A stretch of 12,031 nucleotides of DNA from Vairimorpha ceranae (Eukaryota > Microsporidia > Nosematidae), in the NCBI RefSeq assembly GCF_000988165.1, contig NW_020169395.1, forward strand, positions 1 to 12,031. Reading direction: 5' to 3'. Below are positions 2,579 through 11,022 of the stretch, piece by piece. Made by a program: the position numbers and the translations under genes. Numbering within the stretch: position 1 is the stretch's first letter; every line of letters begins with the position of its first letter. The notes beneath the pieces are model-generated. The model saw nothing but the letters and a program-made list of their open reading frames with translations. It was not told the origin of the DNA and did no database searches.

Positions 2579-2609
2579 GGGTCTTTTAGCGCAACTTGCC
2601 TACATTTTT
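2579..2609 (+). repeat. Left terminal inverted repeat of the 2579-3884 element
   Basis: About 31 bp, pairing with the complement of 3854-3884 with mismatches at positions 5, 8 and in the tail (T versus A before ACATTTTT). The core AGCGCAACTTGCC is identical in both ends. Confidence 0.85.
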
Positions 2610-2699
2610 TTAAAAAAAATAAAAAAAAGTTAATAGTTTATTTCAAAAAATATCTTTAAAGTTTCAATAATGACTTCTCTAAAATTACTAAAAGGTGCA

Positions 2700-3420
2700 T
2701 TAAGTAAGCATTTTTGTTTAAAAGTATATTAATATTATTTCTGGCCACACCAGACTCTTTTCATATTGAGCTTTTCATATGCGACCAAAATCCTTCAATA
2801 TTGTTTGTGTGTGTACCATCTTCAACTTTAAGTCTAGTAGAATAATTAACTACATAGTGGTGTAAATTAAGTTGAGAATCTACTGATGGATTCTTATCAG
2901 TAAACAGTATGCTTTTTTCATGTATAAATTCATAAAAGGCGGATTTTAAAGAAACAATAGTTTTATCTGAAATTCTTAATATAAAAAAAAAATTTCGAAG
3001 TTCTATCTACACCACCCAAAATCAAATGGGTATCAGCAACATTTCATCTGAACTAGTTAGATTTCTGTTTATTTTACACATTTTTAAATGACACTTTCAT
3101 CAACTTTAACTAGTATTTGATCATTATCCGCTAGTATTGGCCTGCGAGATAAAAATACTTTACAGCAAGCTAACAATAAAGATTTATATCTCAAAAAAAT
3201 TGTGTCTATCAAACACAAAAACCGATTTTTTGTTGTAATTACAATCATTCATCAAAAGAAAAATCAATTGTATGACAACTGTATTTGGCGGTTTGCTTTG
3301 AAAAAGAGAATGTCTTTTTTTACATCCTCTTTTTAAACACCTTTATACAAACTTAGTGATACAAGTTACAAAGTGACCAACATACAATCTATATTACAGA
3401 AATTACAACTTGTTGTCAAA
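2700..3420 (-). pseudogene. Merlin DDE transposase of the 2579-3884 element
   Basis: Read on the minus strand from about 3340 leftward. A Cys/basic segment (RGCKKRHSLFQS, about 3295-3345) corresponds to the N-terminal zinc-binding region. ILADNDQILVKVDES carries the first Asp at 3109-3111. Next come HLILGGVDRTSK near 3020, FIHEKSILFTDKN with the second Asp at 2896-2898, LHHYVVNYSTRLKVEDG, and THTNNIEGFWSHMKS with Glu at 2794-2796. Spacing of about 71 and 34 residues between catalytic positions suits the family. The stretch from 2940 down to 2770 is one clean frame, while the N-terminal half has several stops and frame changes. All three catalytic residues survive, unlike the neighbouring copies, so this is probably a younger insertion, but it cannot encode an intact protein. 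Confidence 0.8.
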
Positions 3421-3424
3421 AAAA

Positions 3425-3774
3425 TATGCTGTTTGTCAGCAAAAATCTTTTAAATATCATGACATTAGTAAAAATTTGTTCATTAAAACCAACATGCACA
3501 TAAGGGTATAAAAAATTATTTTTAAAATAAAAAAGCTAAACAACATTAATTATATTTTTTCTTTAAAAAAGTTCTATTTTTTTATTACAAATCAAATATA
3601 TAATTATAAAATTTAAAAAAAACTCAAGAGAAGCGCATTACTAAAGACAAATAAAATTGAAAAGTATTCAAGACAACGTCCGATTCATTTAATAATAGGG
3701 CATTTTGTAAAAAAAACTTGATTTCTGATATTTGCATTTAATCTCGATTAATATGCTTGTTTTGAACTGTATGC
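3425..3774. other. AT-rich leader of the 2579-3884 transposon
   Basis: This non-coding stretch lies between the transposase N-terminus and the fold-back at the right end, so it is the 5' leader of the minus-strand gene. No open frame or specific motif was recognised beyond TA-rich runs that could serve as promoter sequence. Confidence 0.45.
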
Positions 3775-3881
3775 TTTTCTAGCAAAATTTGCCTACATTT
3801 TTGTTTTTACATTTTACATGCTTATTTTTTTAACTCCTATTTCTCCCGAAAACAAAAATGTTGGCAAGTTGCGCTAGAAAA
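3775..3881. repeat. Subterminal fold-back: internal TIR copy facing the right TIR
   Basis: Bases 3775-3807 (TTTTCTAGC, AAAATTTGCC, TACATTTTTGTTTT) pair with the complement of 3849-3881 at 29 of 33 positions without gaps, with a 41-base spacer. The internal arm has the same orientation as the left TIR. A long hairpin can therefore form at the transposase 5' end of the element. Bases 3854-3884 are the true right TIR. Confidence 0.8.
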
Positions 3882-3884
3882 CCC

Positions 3885-4094: not shown

Positions 4095-4095
4095 C

Positions 4096-4100
4096 CCCCC
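4096..4100. repeat. Target site duplication, left (CCCCC)
   Basis: CCCCC lies directly outside the 3' LTR and matches 7444-7448. The run is six C here, so the exact edge is ambiguous by one base. Confidence 0.65.
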
Positions 4101-4150
4101 TATTATGATTTATAAGTTAAGAGTTATTTATTTATAATATTTTTGTAACA
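4101..4150 (-). repeat. 3' LTR of the gypsy element (50 bp)
   Basis: On the minus strand it starts TGTTACAAAAATATTATAAA and ends AAATCATAATA. It aligns with the 45-bp copy at 7399-7443: the first 20 bases differ at one position and the last block (AAGTT to the end) at two, with a 5-7-base central difference. Similarity stops sharply at both edges. The terminal CA is TA here, a single change from the other copy. Confidence 0.85.
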
Positions 4151-4160
4151 TTCTTCCGCC
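4151..4160 (-). promoter_or_regulatory. Candidate polypurine tract
   Basis: On the minus strand GGCGGAAGAA lies immediately before the 3' LTR, where the plus-strand primer of an LTR retrotransposon is expected. Nine of ten bases are purines. It is short and assigned mainly by position. Confidence 0.5.
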
Positions 4161-4181
4161 AAGTCAATAAACCCCTTTTAT

Positions 4182-4900
4182 TTACGGCCTTGGCTAGTCG
4201 TAATGTCTCTTTGTGCTTTTATTATTATCTAGTCCAATTTTACACGCGTCTTTTCCAATTTCCTCTTCTATCTTACCTACTCTTTCATATTTAGGTTGTC
4301 CTTTAAATTTATGTATTTCGTTTTTTATCAGCACGTTGTCTTCTATTTTGTATTTATTTTCCTTTTCTCCTTTATTCCTTTTTTCTTTATACTTTAAAGC
4401 ATTTTGGAACTGTGCCTTTTCGCCTTTATCTTATTTTCTTTCTTTCTTTCTTTCTTTCTTCCTTCCTTGCTTCTTCTGGTGTCATATCCACGCTACAATG
4501 GTGTACGTTATTGTAAACGTTTAATACACCGTCTACTCTATCAATTAGGATGATAATTGAGGGATGTTTATTAATTCCTTCTAATATTGTTCTGTTAAAA
4601 CATTCGATTTTGCCATTTGATTGATGATAAGGTTGTGTGTCTTATTATGTCGTTAATTTTACACCATTCCAAGACTTATTTGCTAACATTCTCTTTCGCA
4701 GAATCACATATTAATCTTTTAATATTTATTTGTTCTTTTACTTTTGCTAAAAAACTTACAATATTCTCCAAGTTTCTATTTCTCAATACTTCTGCGAATC
4801 CATATCTACTAGAAAAATCTATCGCCGTAATAATATATTTATTCTCATAAGGTCCTATGGTATAAAAATTAACCTTTTCTCCTACCTCATAGGAGTTAAT
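4182..4900 (-). pseudogene. Gypsy integrase, DDE core and C-terminal domain
   Basis: Integrase inserts the cDNA into the host chromosome. On the minus strand the core reads YENKYIITAIDFSSRYGFAE with the first Asp near 4815-4820, IKRLICDSAKEN with the second Asp near 4700, and after one frame change PYHQSNGKIECFNRTILEG with Glu at about 4603-4605. The D1-D2 gap is only about 38 residues and D2-E about 32, shorter than the common retroviral spacing. VYNNVHHCSVDMTPEEARK follows, then an Lys/Glu-rich stretch encoded by a TTTC repeat, then a C-terminal domain (IEDNVLIKNEIHKFKG and KRHYD-stop-PRP) ending at TAA 4182-4184, 31 bases before the 3' LTR. Frame changes and stops make it non-functional despite the retained triad. 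Confidence 0.88.
4435..4468. repeat. TTTC microsatellite inside the integrase gene
   Basis: An imperfect run of TTTC/TTCC repeats. On the coding minus strand it gives alternating Glu, Arg and Lys codons (EERKKERK) in the linker between the DDE core and the C-terminal domain. It probably expanded by slippage, in or after the life of the element. Confidence 0.8.
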
Positions 4901-5584
4901 TTAATGTGAGTTATTAACTTTAATTAGATTGTATAATTTACATTCTACACAATTACTTAATACTTCTTTTATTAGTTGATACGATACTTGATCTTTGTGT
5001 GCCTTATTGTATTTCTCACAGATTATTCTAGCACCCCGATGCACTATTTGTTTATAGAAGTTTAAGATTGCTTTTTTCTTTTCTTTTTCTATAGTATCTT
5101 TAATTATGTTAATGTGATGTGTTTGAGTTATTCTGCTTAGTCCATCTACATGAGTTATTTTCCGTCCTTGTCTACATTCAACTTTTAAACTGAAGAGCTG
5201 AATTCTTTCGATCCAGTGTTCAATTCTTTTTGAGCGCAGTGTTCCGCGGTCATCTAACGCTTTAAGAGCTTTATGGTCTGTTATCAATTTAAATTCTCTT
5301 TCTAGTAAAAAGTATTTGAAATGCTCCATTGCACACAGTTCTGCTAGCATTTTTTTTTCACTTATCGAATAATTGCGCTCTGCGCTTCCTAATTTACGTG
5401 AAGCAAATGCGACCGGCAAACTATCTCCATCAAACTCTTGACATAGAACTGCTCCGATACCTACATTGAAGACATCTGTTTCTTTTATAAATTTCTTTTC
5501 AAAATCCGGTTGTTGTAACACTGTGCCCCTATTAGTAGCTCTTTTGGTGTATTGGAAGCTTTTTCGCAATTGCATGTCATTCAA
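4901..5584 (-). pseudogene. Gypsy RNase H and integrase zinc-finger segment
   Basis: This is the longest uninterrupted frame of the element, 227 codons. The RNase H domain (about residues 25-150) degrades RNA in the RNA-DNA hybrid. It shows TDVFNVGIGAVLCQ (usually TDAS), LPVAFASRKLGSAERNYS, EKKMLAELCAMEHFKYFL, ITDHKALKAL, the RI-HWIERIQLFS block and the closing HVDGLSR. An integrase N-terminal HHCC finger follows (HRGARIICEKYNKAHKDQ, then NCVECKLYN). There is no independent gene start: the Met at 5584 is internal to pol, and RT lies directly upstream in other frames. Being open over 680 bases, it is the best preserved part of the element. Confidence 0.92.
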
Positions 5585-5589
5585 ATTTA

Positions 5590-6480
5590 ATATTCTTTTT
5601 TGTCAGTCTAAGCAATGGTTCTTGGATCGCAGCGCAATTTTTTATGAACTTTCTATAATAATTTACTATTCCCAAAAACATTTTACCTCGTCTGAATTAT
5701 TTTGTTGTGGATACTTAATTATCTATACATGGTAAAATCATATCGCCTATCAACACGTGTCCCAAAAACTTTATTTCTGTAACTGCATATATTGTTTTTT
5801 TGGCCATGATATTGTTCTTAATTGGCGTTTTAACAACATTTTTAAACGCTTGATCATGCTCTTCTCTCGTTTTCCGAAAATTAATATGTCATCCACATAA
5901 ACGTTCAACATTTTTAAATAAATTCTTGTAACATGTTATCTATAACTCTTTGAAAAATGGCCGGAGAGTTTTTGAACCCCATGAGCATTCTAGTCCACTC
6001 ATATAGTCTATTTTTTATTCTAAATGCTGTCTTGCGACAATTTTGTTCGTTTATTCTAATTTAAAAGAATCCTTTTTTAAATTGATTTTTGATCCTTTAG
6101 TTTATAAATGATCTCATCTATGTTAGGCAAAGAATATCTGTCTAGTTTTGCTAATTTATTAAGCCTTATCAGATTTGTTGTTAAGCGTATACTTCCATCT
6201 GTTTTCATCACTGGTCTGACGTTATTAAACCAGGCATATTGGCTTGGTCTGATGTATTCAACTTTTAGTAGTCTCTTTACTTCCTCTTCTATTTTTTCCT
6301 CATAGGCTTGCGGCAACTTATATTGTTTGATTACAACATTCCTTCCTTATTCAGTTTCAGTCTTTAATTTTCAGCTCAAATTTTCTCCCTTTTTCTTTGA
6401 ACAGTTCTTCCAGTGGCGAATCAATAGTGTCGTCTTCTGTTTTATTTTCTTTTTTCATTATTGGGTTAGTTGATCAATCT
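5590..6480 (-). pseudogene. Gypsy reverse transcriptase, broken
   Basis: RT copies the element RNA into DNA. On the minus strand it begins near 6440 with SPLEELFKEKGRKFELKIK, then an open stretch (6316-6077) with EEEVKRLLKVEYIRPSQYAW, VRPVMKTDGSIRLTTNLIRL and DRYSLPNIDEIIYKLKDQK, the usual fingers-palm entry. The next expected block, motif A with its catalytic Asp (LDL followed by GF), is absent: the frame goes to FKKGFF and RINEQNCRKTAFRIK near 6070-6020. MLMGFKNSPAIFQRVIDNML is intact near 5990-5935, and the catalytic YVDD lies at 5888-5899 followed by ILIFGK. FLGHVL and FLGIVNYYRKFIKNCAAIQ close the thumb region near 5760 and 5640. At least five frame changes or stops are present. Confidence 0.92.
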
Positions 6481-6484
6481 CTTC

Positions 6485-6730
6485 CCACTATAATTATAAA
6501 ATTTTCTCTTTTAGGAAGTATATAAAAGATTTCTTCATAGATATTTTTTTTGATAAAAAAAATTTATTTTTGTACTTCTGAAATCAAAAATTTTTCATTA
6601 AAACATGAAAATCTCTCTCACTTCTGATTAAGTTTACAAATGTCTAACTTCAATTTTTTCCGTTACTATTTTCGATATCTAGTTTTCCTTTGCTCCTGTG
6701 TCAAGCAATACTAAAAAATTGTTTCTTTTT
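6485..6730 (-). pseudogene. Gypsy aspartic protease remnant
   Basis: The retroviral-type protease would cleave the Gag-Pol precursor. On the minus strand NNFLVLLDTGAKEN contains the active-site LLDTGA at 6691-6708, followed by a stop, then ISKIVTEKIE. Near 6490-6510, FIIIVGRD resembles the C-terminal hydrophobic-GRD motif of these proteases. The intervening flap region is degraded. It lies between gag and RT, where gypsy elements carry it. Confidence 0.75.
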
Positions 6731-6764
6731 ATACGTACGTAATTATTTTTATTTAATAATTATT

Positions 6765-7343
6765 CTGTTTCAGCAATATTAACTCTTTTTGATCGCTGTT
6801 TTTTAAGTGCTTCTCCTCTTCTTTAAATATATTATTTTTCTTATTAACAACCCCTTTCTCCTTCCTGTTCACTCAAGCTTGATACAATTCATCACCTATT
6901 GCACTTCCCCTTTACTTTATCGTAAAGCGTTTTGATGAATTTCTTTTTACCACAAATCGCCAATCTTATTTCTGTAATGCTTTTCATTAGTCCTTTCTTT
7001 AAAATTTTCAAAATAATGTCTTCTTTTGGTTTCGGCTGTTTTCCTCCTTTTTCCATTTTTTTAAAAATTTAAATGCAGATTCTTCTTTTTTCTGTTTAAT
7101 ATCTAAAAAATTTCGTCGTAATAGTCCTTCCAATGTTTCTAAAGCCTCTTCTTTCTATGTTTCATAAGACAAATCATTCACATTTTTAGATTTAAATCCC
7201 TCTTGATGCCACCGAACAAGCATATCATCTCCTTGGGACAGCATACTATATATTTTTTCTTTATCAGACGTTTTATCAAATCCAAGGTTATACTCTTTTC
7301 TTGATATATCTAGTTCAAGATTCTCCGTAGATATTTTATCCAA
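6765..7343 (-). pseudogene. Gypsy gag with one in-frame stop and eroded zinc knuckle
   Basis: Gag forms the particle that packages the element RNA. A single minus-strand frame runs from about 7349 to 6892 with only one TAG, at 7155-7157. Before it are YNLGFDKTSDKEKIYSMLSQ and GDDMLVRWHQEGFKSKNVND; after it KEEALETLEGLLRRNFLDIK, a lysine-rich linker, and ITEIRLAICGKKKFIKTLYD. KCNR then a stop, followed in another frame by DELYQA and VNRKEKGVVNKKNN, looks like a damaged CCHC zinc knuckle. No ATG begins the frame; a TTG occupies the likely start. Identification rests on position, charge pattern and the Cys motif, since gag sequences are poorly conserved. Confidence 0.75.
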
Positions 7344-7389
7344 TCTTGATTAAATTTCTTTTAACTTATCTCAATAATTTTGATTTTTT

Positions 7390-7398
7390 TTTCCACCA
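7390..7398 (-). promoter_or_regulatory. Primer binding site of the gypsy element
   Basis: On the minus strand TGGTGGAAA follows the 5' LTR with no gap. It is complementary to a tRNA 3' end of ...TTTCCA-CCA, the usual minus-strand primer type. The tRNA was not identified. Confidence 0.7.
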
Positions 7399-7443
7399 TG
7401 TTATGATTTTTAAGTTGGGGGGTTTTATAATATTTCTGTAACA
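7399..7443 (-). repeat. 5' LTR of the gypsy element (45 bp)
   Basis: On the minus strand it starts TGTTACAGAAATATTATAAA and ends AAAAATCATAACA, giving TG...CA ends and a 5-bp terminal inverted repeat (TGTTA/TAACA). A CCCCCC run in the middle is absent from the 4101-4150 copy, which has an A/T-rich insert instead. Confidence 0.85.
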
Positions 7444-7448
7444 CCCCC
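7444..7448. repeat. Target site duplication, right (CCCCC)
   Basis: CCCCC lies directly outside the 5' LTR and matches 4096-4100, the 5-bp length normal for Ty3/gypsy integrases. Confidence 0.65.
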
Positions 7449-8022: not shown

Positions 8023-8030
8023 GAATAATC
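8023..8030. repeat. Target site duplication, left (GAATAATC)
   Basis: GAATAATC directly before the element matches AAATAATC directly after it (9042-9049) at 7 of 8 positions. Eight base pairs is the duplication length known for Merlin elements. Confidence 0.75.
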
Positions 8031-8037
8031 GGATCAG

Positions 8038-8070
8038 TGCGGTTATTTCCCCCGGGGGGAAATAACCGCA
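8038..8070. repeat. Perfect fold-back at the left end of the young Merlin element
   Basis: TGCGGTTATTTCCCCC (8038-8053) is exactly complementary to GGGGGAAATAACCGCA (8055-8070) with one unpaired G between. The right-hand arm is a second, inverted copy of the TIR interior. The 3' end of the element has no equivalent. Confidence 0.9.
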
Positions 8071-8094
8071 GTATATTTTTTTACTCTTATATGA

Positions 8095-8986
8095 GAAAAA
8101 ATTTTGCCAATTATTGGTACTGATATAAATTGTTCTATTAACTTTCTCAAGTCCAAAGGATTAATTAAAAGAAGCATGTGTTGCGTTTATTGCTCTAGAG
8201 GTATAGACTGGCTAGCTTGCAGTAAGACCAAAGACAAATTTGTTTGGAAGTGCGGAAAGAAACAATATCTTAATTTTAAAACTAAACTTTCAATCAGAAA
8301 CAATTCGTTTTTTGAAAAAAACGAATTGATTTACAAATGAGAGTATACGCCATTTACCATAAGAGCATAAACACTTCGCATAAAAATATTGGCGTTTTGA
8401 CGGGACCAAGACACGATAAGGTAACTGACATGTGCAGAAGTTTTAGAAATGCATGTGTAAAGTTCTTTATTAGAAATACTATTTCCCTTGGTGGTCCTAG
8501 CATTATATGCCAAATTGATGAAAGCTTGTATTTTCACAAGCAAAAATATCATGGGGGACGCACGTCAGAACATCAAGTCTGAGTTTTTGGGATAGTTGAT
8601 ACAAGTTATTTATCGGCAAGAGGATACATAGAGGTTGTAGCCCCAAAAGATAAAGCTACCCTTCTGTATACTATTCGAAGAATATGTTTGCCTGGTAAGA
8701 TTATTCATAAAGATCAATGGGCTGCATATAAGGATATTACAGGCTTGGGGGTTCAACATTATACAGTAAACCGTTCTTTAAATTTTGTTAATCCTGATAA
8801 TGGTGTCCATACGTAACATATGAATCGTATTGGAATAAGGATAAAATTTATATTGAAAAAATGAAAGGCGTTAAAAAGAAAGGCTTAAGTTCATATCTTG
8901 CTGAATATATGTGACGTAAAATATTTAGAGCTAATGGGTTTTATAAAATATTAGAATGTTTGACTGTATTGAATAAAAATAATTAA
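8095..8986 (+). pseudogene. Merlin DDE transposase of the 8031-9041 element
   Basis: The reading frames total about 297 codons, a normal Merlin length. An N-terminal zinc-ribbon-like part (FLKSKGLIKRSMCCVYC ... FVWKCGKKQ, then KLSIRNNSFFEKNEL) runs to a stop at 8338-8340. A frame change then leads to GVLTGPRHDKVTDMCRSF, IICQIDESLYFHKQKYHGG with Asp at 8517-8519, a TGA at 8580-8582 where Trp is expected, then an open stretch with IEVVAPKDKATLLYTI, IIHKDQWAAY (Asp at 8712-8714) and HYTVNRSLNFVNPDNGVHT. A TAA at 8814-8816 and a one-base loss near 8823 destroy the region of the catalytic Glu. YWNKDKIYIEKMKG and YLAEYM-TGA-RKIF complete the C-terminus, ending at 8984-8986. There is no in-frame ATG at the start; the nearest ATG (8091) is in another frame. 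Few lesions suggest recent inactivation. Confidence 0.92.
8301..8328. repeat. 28-bp palindrome inside the transposase coding region
   Basis: CAATTCGTTTTTT (8301-8313) and AAAAAACGAATTG (8316-8328) are exact complements around a 2-base loop. The sequence lies in the codons for NNSFFEKNEL, about ten bases before the frame break at 8338. Confidence 0.9.
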
Positions 8987-9018
8987 ATTTCTCTATTATT
9001 TTTTTTTATTTTTTTCTG

Positions 9019-9041
9019 GGGGAAAATAACCGCACTGATCC
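9019..9041 (-). repeat. Right terminal inverted repeat of the young Merlin element
   Basis: The complement begins GGATCAGTGCGGTTATTTTC and pairs with 8031-8053, with one additional T before the C run. Confidence 0.9.
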
Positions 9042-9049
9042 AAATAATC
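9042..9049. repeat. Target site duplication, right (AAATAATC)
   Basis: It matches 8023-8030 except at the first base. Confidence 0.75.
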
Positions 9050-10073: not shown

Positions 10074-11022
10074 GATTGCACCAGTCAAAGCAAATGAGGA
10101 ATACCATAATATTGTACAATACTTGCAGGGGAAAGATGTGACAATCGGGGAGATTAAGTAAGCAAACTATCGATTTAAAAATGGTGTGGAAATTTTGTTT
10201 GGTAGACAATCTACTTTTTTTAAAAAATGCAAATGGAAACCACAAACGTGTTATTGTTGAGGGCATAATGGCGGCAATAAAACTTGAGGTGCAGACATTG
10301 CACAGACAAAAACATTATGAACACAATCGTTTTTATGGACTGTGCAAGCAACTGTATTTCTTTATACCAAAACCGCTTGTTAGAGGGTTTGTGCAGAATG
10401 CAATATTTGTGCACAAGCACAACCTCTAAAAACAAAAGAAAAATTTAAACACATTTTGCCAAGCAGGCCTTTTGAAGGGTTGATAATAGATCTTATTGAT
10501 ATGAGGAGTTATGCTTGTCAAAATAGTGATTACACTTGGATCTTAATTGGTATAGATGTAAATGCAAAGCATACATTAACCGGTTCGATGAAGCAAAAAC
10601 GGCTGTTGAAGTTGTTATGCGTTTAAAACCCCCTTTATATCCTTGGTTATCCTCAAATTTATAAGTTGACTATGGTAAAGAATTTACAAATTCAGTTTTC
10701 ACTGGATTTTGCAACTCAAAAAAATACTCTAATTCATGGTAAGCCTGGGCATCTGCAAAGCCAAGGCTAAGTTGTGAGATTTAATCAAACTCTTACAAGA
10801 TATCTACAATAACATTTGTATAATCAAAACAATGCAAATAATAAAAAATGGTCATCAATTTTACAAAAGATGGCTTATGAGTAAAATATGGCTGTTCATT
10901 CTGTGGCAAATAAGTCGCCATTTAATTTGTTTTTTTATAAAATTGGCTTTAATACGATATTACTCGAGAATAAAGGTGAATATGAAGAGAGAAGTGATAA
11001 AAATATAAACATTGGTGTATAA
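10074..11022 (+). pseudogene. KRBA2/SCAND3-like retroviral-type integrase, broken
   Basis: Proteins of this type carry an HHCC zinc finger and an rve DDE core and are common transposon-derived genes in microsporidia and animals. Here HRQKHYEHNRFYGLCKQLYF, then IPKPLVRGFVQN, then (after a one-base loss near 10398) NICAQAQPLK forms the zinc finger. SRPFEGLIIDLIDMRSYACQ has the first Asp at 10489-10491, NSDYTWILIGIDVNAKHTLT follows, and after frame changes DYGKEFTNSVFTGFCNSKK has the second Asp at 10668-10670. GKPGHLQSQG-TAA-VVRFNQ follows, where the catalytic Glu is Val (GTG, 10774-10776). LTRYLQ, KKWSSILQKMAYE and VANKSPFNLFFYK finish the core. Spacing of about 60 and 35 residues is textbook for D,D(35)E. 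Lesions are few for its length, so decay is recent to moderate. Confidence 0.85.

Follow-up and report, generated by a model that had tools for sequence, protein, structure and literature searches.

Terminal repeats of about 50 bp in a decayed Ty3/gypsy element of the microsporidian Vairimorpha ceranae

Long terminal repeats (LTRs) are usually thought to owe their size to three things that they must hold, namely the promoter, the poly(A) signal and the R region. A locus of Vairimorpha ceranae raises the question of whether repeats of only 45 and 50 bp can be the entire LTRs of a retrotransposon and, if so, where its transcription would start. The window, i.e. the whole stretch of 12,031 nucleotides that was analysed (contig NW_020169395.1 of assembly GCF_000988165.1, hereafter contig C3), belongs to an assembly of 4.56 Mb in 116 contigs. 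The small-subunit ribosomal RNA of the host best fits the Rfam family SSU_rRNA_microsporidia (1041.8 bits). At positions 4101-7443, on the minus strand, the window harbours a decayed Ty3/gypsy element. We consider it probable that this is a dead copy of a microsporidian element whose LTRs were already about 50 bp long when it was active, and that its LTR represents a bare host core promoter.

Ends and coding content of the window element

At the level of sequence, our analysis shows that the LTR edges are fixed on the outside by target-site duplications and on the inside by a primer binding site (PBS) and a polypurine tract (PPT). The features that define the ends of the window copy are the following, in the direction of the element.

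7444..7448, no strand: 5' target-site duplication of the element, on whose strand it reads GGGGG
7399..7443, minus strand: 5' LTR, 45 bp, with edges common to the copies of contigs C75 and C112
7417..7429, minus strand: TATAAAA and then six consecutive C, within the 5' LTR
7397..7399, minus strand: ATG across the LTR/PBS junction, its A being the final LTR base and its TG part of the PBS, read by eye
7384..7398, minus strand: PBS, decayed in the window copy, starting with TGGTGG
4151..4160, minus strand: PPT GGCGGAAGAA, abutting the 3' LTR
4101..4150, minus strand: 3' LTR, 50 bp, identified as a repeat pair by pattern search and alignment
4096..4100, no strand: target-site duplication on the 3' side of the element, inside the six-C run of the plus strand

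The two LTRs share 38 identical bases, with 7 different ones and a single 5-base gap. When the 45-bp copy was aligned locally with the 3' region, the score was 25, compared with a maximum of 22 in 1000 shuffles. The two LTRs are the only matches in the window to a 20-nt pattern of the LTR start with at most 3 mismatches (0.07 expected); genome-wide, the same pattern gave 114 matches versus 71 for the reversed control, which is little above background. Purine-rich tracts adjoining the 3' LTR were read directly from the sequence in the window copy and in the copies of C112 and C22.

An earlier, sequence-only reading of the locus had taken the repeats of 45-50 bp for true LTRs, and the duplications, the PBS, the PPT and the edges shared with other copies bear this out. 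The CCCCC duplication that it proposed is present, as GGGGG on the element strand, but it is weak taken alone, as positions 4095-4100 are a run of six C; the ATACC duplication of the C112 copy is clearer. Similarly, the PBS and the PPT do lie just inside the LTRs, but the window PBS has decayed to matches of 7 nt with tRNA-Ala and 8 nt with tRNA-Phe, so that the window copy alone cannot identify the primer. The ends TGTTAC...TAACA were wrongly ascribed to both repeats, as the 3' LTR of the window ends in TA and not in CA. Among the 12 LTRs that we compared in this genome, 9 start with TG and 7 end with CA; both hold for 6 of them, namely the 5' LTRs of the window and C75 copies and both LTRs of C112 and of C39.

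The complete layout claimed for the element applies to its ends but not to its coding region, which is fragmented and broken in all three frames. The following pieces were recognized.

5899..6081, minus strand: reverse transcriptase (RT) fragment with three internal stops, PF00078, 41 bits, over the cut-off
4904..5602, minus strand: RNase H and the part that follows it, in a 233-aa open stretch, PF17917, 3.2e-27
4679..4900, minus strand: candidate integrase core piece, Pfam rve, E = 0.049, below the cut-off

The RVT_1 fragment is thus located upstream of RT_RNaseH, an order as in Ty3/gypsy elements. The candidate integrase piece shows 53% identity over 74 aa to the gypsy Pol of Nosema granulosis, the nearest named relative of the element's protein that we found, and the matched part corresponds to the region downstream of the RNase H of that protein. 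A genome-wide profile search of the host with PF00665 (rve) did not match the element, and no Gag or protease domains were found in the pieces of the window copy tested against Pfam. The ATG at the LTR/PBS junction opens 12 codons in the window copy and 37 in C112. Pieces of RT and RNase H are also present in the latter copy, along with a marginal protease match that falls just under the cut-off (E = 0.001).

Other copies and a second family with short LTRs

A DNA search of the host genome with the element gave at least 9 matches, corresponding to at least 5 placed copies including that of the window; the search scores best candidates only, and all copy counts are therefore lower bounds. The C112 copy has the full layout over 3347 bp, with approximately 65% nucleotide identity to the window copy. 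It carries a 53-bp LTR at each end, with 6 differences between the two (alignment score 41, maximum of 25 in 1000 shuffles). That a copy so diverged retains 53-bp LTRs indicates that the LTR size has persisted through long divergence. The C75 copy has kept its 5' LTR (50 bp) and its PBS and has an internal deletion, and the C22 and C13 copies have only a 3' LTR, with the same edge. Outside the LTR edges, the sequences differ between copies by eye, in all three of the 5' flanks compared and in all four of the 3' flanks.

When only the 3' half of the LTR was used as the pattern, 10 sites were found, as opposed to none for the reversed pattern. Six of them are in the five copies, and four are new (C48, C92, C52 and C73). 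The new sites are mostly partial LTRs, in which similarity stops within 2 bases of the same edge, C92 excepted, and the 1.1-kb stretches around them contain further weak matches to internal parts of the element. The earlier reading had proposed to look for other copies and to align their ends; with the exception of the weak C92 match, identity does not run well past the edges. Among the best-scoring candidates of the host genome, we found no copy with longer LTRs that would enclose these repeats as internal pieces. The argument that shrinkage of one copy after insertion does not explain the short LTRs likewise holds, given the same edges in diverged copies.

We compared the PBS with 55 host tRNA genes (best candidates only). 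A tRNA-Ala(AGC) encoded at C22:19008-19079 is exactly complementary to the PBS over 15 nt in C75 and 14 nt in C112, the next best tRNA reaching 8 nt. In both copies the PBS begins at the first base past the LTR, with no gap. These matches show host tRNA-Ala to be the predicted primer of this family, called A hereafter, in two copies.

We identified a second gypsy family, B, in C39, C8 and C13:35.3-38.6k. The C8 RT piece is approximately 43% identical to that of C112 over 82 aa. The LTRs are 47 and 49 bp long in C39 (LTR-only alignment score 35, maximum of 20 in 1000 shuffles) and 41 and 40 bp in C8 (score 28, maximum of 17 in 1000 shuffles), and the C13 element has one 3' LTR. A first test with whole end regions had remained at chance level for C39 (score 37, maximum of 38 in 30 shuffles) and likewise for C8, C13 and C111. 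The C8 PBS matches tRNA-Pro(AGG) over 12 nt. The LTR of family B itself contains an ATG, located 5 nt downstream of a CCC motif, whose frame continues through the PBS. In C8 this ATG is part of a 183-codon open stretch that reaches a marginal zinc knuckle (E = 0.00091, just under the cut-off); in C39 the frame meets a stop after 7 codons. Because diverged copies of family A keep the same edges and family B has 40-49-bp LTRs, the sequences indicate that the short LTR is ancestral and not a remnant.

Additional LTR candidates were found in the same genome. A 452-bp direct repeat in C4 (91.6% identity) was considered as a conventional LTR; read against C10, it appeared to be duplicated coding sequence, and element-end tests of C4 were at chance level. 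At C10:6440-6500, a candidate third family of very short LTRs has a TATA-like string, CCC, an in-frame ATG directly after CCC and a 7-nt PBS for tRNA-Ser. It was not counted as a family, as its 3' LTR is not demonstrable (score 16, shuffles up to 20). A scan of selected genome stretches for CCC plus a PBS gave 10 matches, at least 3 of which are not LTRs (mean of 1.0 in shuffles). Finally, direct repeats of approximately 190 bp (TGTTACC or TGTTCCC ... GGTAACA) surround a gypsy RT in C32 (705-896 and 4871-5059). They align with a score of 90 (shuffle maximum 43), have no PBS match and are likely to be LTRs of conventional size.

Promoter-like signals and possible modes of replication

For the sequences upstream of host genes, we sampled 27 open reading frames (ORFs) of at least 120 codons from stretches taken for other purposes or at arbitrary places; the first ATG was assumed to be the start, and a few may be transposon ORFs. 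In 14 of the 27, CCC occurs no more than 30 nt upstream of the first ATG, and in one it occurs at -60 to -31; shuffled controls gave a mean of 1.3 and a maximum of 5. In these 14 ORFs, CCC is 0-14 nt away from the ATG. A smaller run with 12 ORFs, two transposon starts among them, gave 6 versus 0. These observations are in line with rapid amplification of cDNA ends in Encephalitozoon cuniculi, where 5' untranslated regions of less than 7 nt and a CCC-like motif directly before most coding starts were reported (PMC2803860).

CCC is kept in 9 of the 12 LTRs, in both families, and ends 20-21 nt before the LTR end and PBS (measured from the first CCC where the C run is longer). The part of the LTR that precedes it is 17-30 nt long and contains TATAAA in 5 of the 12 LTRs, or a looser TATA-like string in 9. 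AATAAA or ATTAAA is found just before the CCC position in 8. The objection that 45-50 bp leave hardly any room for a promoter is thus not supported, as microsporidian core signals are that short. Since the host signals are equally short and a host-type CCC fits the LTR, the different transcription arrangement that had been considered is not needed, although strand transfer would still require a very short R.

We propose that U3 would consist of the 17-30 nt of AT-rich DNA ending in CCC, a motif typical of microsporidian genes, with transcription starting at or near this CCC. R and U5 would then together span only about 20-23 nt, the PBS following immediately. The gag-pol frame would start at the ATG of the LTR/PBS junction in family A and at the ATG inside the LTR in family B. 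AATAAA or ATTAAA before the CCC might direct a poly(A) site inside the 3' LTR, the poly(A) signal overlapping the promoter, and an R of about 10-20 nt would be left for first strand transfer. A retroviral R can be as short as about 15 nt, as in mouse mammary tumour virus. More tentatively, and with slightly less than even likelihood in our estimation, an LTR cut to the host core promoter may be common to two gypsy families of this microsporidian, or even to a third, with a U3 of 17-30 nt, a CCC initiator and a fixed R-U5 of 20-21 nt in which the gag start codon can be included.

Several observations weigh against these proposals. The transcription start and the poly(A) site, and with them the division of the LTR into U3, R and U5, are deduced from DNA sequence, and all copies seen are broken, so that activity is presumed. 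Three of the 12 LTRs lack CCC, each being one substitution off. Upstream of the CCC position, there is no loose TATA-like string in 3 of the 12 and no AATAAA or ATTAAA in 4, and in DNA with 24% G+C such strings are common anyway. The gap between CCC and ATG in family A, 19-20 nt, is outside the 0-14 nt of the host sample. Homology alone would keep the CCC distance constant inside one family, so that independent evidence comes solely from the agreement between the families, whose LTRs may themselves be related. In family B, the C39 duplication is imperfect (TGAGT/TGTGT, 4 of 5 matching), C8 has no target duplication and a 5' LTR that does not start with TG, and several LTR limits were set by eye. 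Lastly, C92 weakly matches C112 (72% over 92 bases) for 39 bases past the LTR edge, which we read as decayed internal sequence or chance.

Alternatively, the short LTRs might be real but serve strand transfer and integration only, with the promoter elsewhere, inside the element or in flanking host DNA. The start of transcription in the LTR is proposed from DNA sequence, and E. cuniculi is known to show transcription overrun (PMC2803860), both of which would suit this explanation. However, the frame seems to begin at or before the LTR/PBS junction, and an internal start would remove the frame start and the PBS. A promoter in the flanks would give transcripts that lack a defined R, and the LTR carries the host-type CCC at a fixed distance. 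We consider this alternative unlikely.

It is quite improbable, in our view, that replication is non-standard, by self-priming or template switching without need of R. This would accommodate the short R, which a transcription start at CCC limits to about 20-23 nt at most, but the 14-15 nt right after the LTR that pair with the CCA-bearing 3' end of a host tRNA correspond to the ordinary tRNA-primer layout.

Still less credible is that longer LTRs lost their outer parts and left these repeats as inner remnants. The copies are old and decayed, as seen in the substitutions and gap of the window pair, and there is the weak C92 match beyond the edge; nevertheless, the LTRs of both the window copy and C112 are bordered on the outside by 5-bp duplications, the PBS and PPT adjoin the inner edges, and the edges agree across copies. 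Least plausible of all is a non-autonomous deletion derivative mobilized in trans, similar to terminal-repeat retrotransposons in miniature (TRIMs) or small LTR retrotransposons (SMARTs), in which small LTRs are typical (85-bp repeats in SMARTs; PMC3281118), given that both the window copy and C112 contain RT and RNase H, the former together with an integrase-like piece and the latter with the marginal protease piece.

Known elements with short LTRs and neighbours in the window

We favour the explanation that LTRs of about 50 bp act as minimal host-type promoters, and we compared them with those of other elements. The Gag start codon of the yeast element Ty1 is located inside the LTR, as proposed for family B; Ty1 differs in belonging to the copia group and in having an LTR of >300 bp. 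The mag element of Bombyx mori (Ty3/gypsy) has an LTR of 77 bp, a length for which we found no paper stating it. Mag-like elements of Culex have LTRs of 119-304 bp and Leu, Ser or Arg primers (PMC3286476), unlike the tRNA-Ala predicted for the window family. The available text of the same source attributes 'unusually short LTRs', with no length given, to woot-like mosquito elements (PMC3286476). Wherever a length is given, the LTRs of mosquito gypsy elements are longer than those of the window element. FRetro64 of Oryza brachyantha (Ty1/copia) has LTRs of 76 and 90 bp, and SMART/FRetro129 has an LTR of 85 bp (PMC3281118). These elements are copia or non-autonomous, and their LTRs are about 1.5 to 2 times longer than those described here.

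In the same host phylum, elements that are also of the Ty3/gypsy type were described in Nosema bombycis (Xu et al. 2006) and Anncaliia algerae (groups 1-3). These elements are described as encoding one polyprotein that comprises Gag, protease, RT, RNase H and integrase (PMC4202319; PMC2474625). The parts of these two reports covered here state neither LTR length nor primer for the N. bombycis and A. algerae elements, and those of other microsporidian papers give no LTR length either; short LTRs may already be tabulated in the supplements or in Xu et al. 2006. The accessible parts of the literature on very short LTRs state no LTR below 76 bp for an element with its own enzymes. In a comparison of this extent, outside which the supplements on microsporidian transposable elements lie, the 40-53-bp LTRs are the shortest that we found for a protein-coding element. 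No relatives of the element were found in a scan of viral contigs.

If the more tentative proposal of an LTR common to several families is correct, no autonomous retroelement would have shorter working LTRs, and the lower limit of the R needed in strand transfer would have to be revised downwards. Were 40-53 bp to suffice with minimal promoters, LTR length would track the transcription signals of the host, and R could be near its enzymatic minimum. Searches that assume LTRs of at least 100 bp, a common default, would then miss such elements in compact genomes.

The window contains additional traces of mobile elements. A short open stretch at 10384-10626 resembles an integrase core by eye, with no Pfam match at 0.001. 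A Merlin/IS1595-type DNA transposon remnant is found at 2579-3884, with 31-nt inverted repeats that are 90% complementary and a transposase piece at 2761-3006 on the minus strand (PF12762, 1.5e-6). At 8023-9049, a broken transposase-like frame is enclosed by the inverted repeats of a second element, which are 31 nt long and 87% complementary. Two pieces of this frame have no Pfam match, and the element is apparently flanked by an 8-bp duplication with one mismatch, as read by eye.

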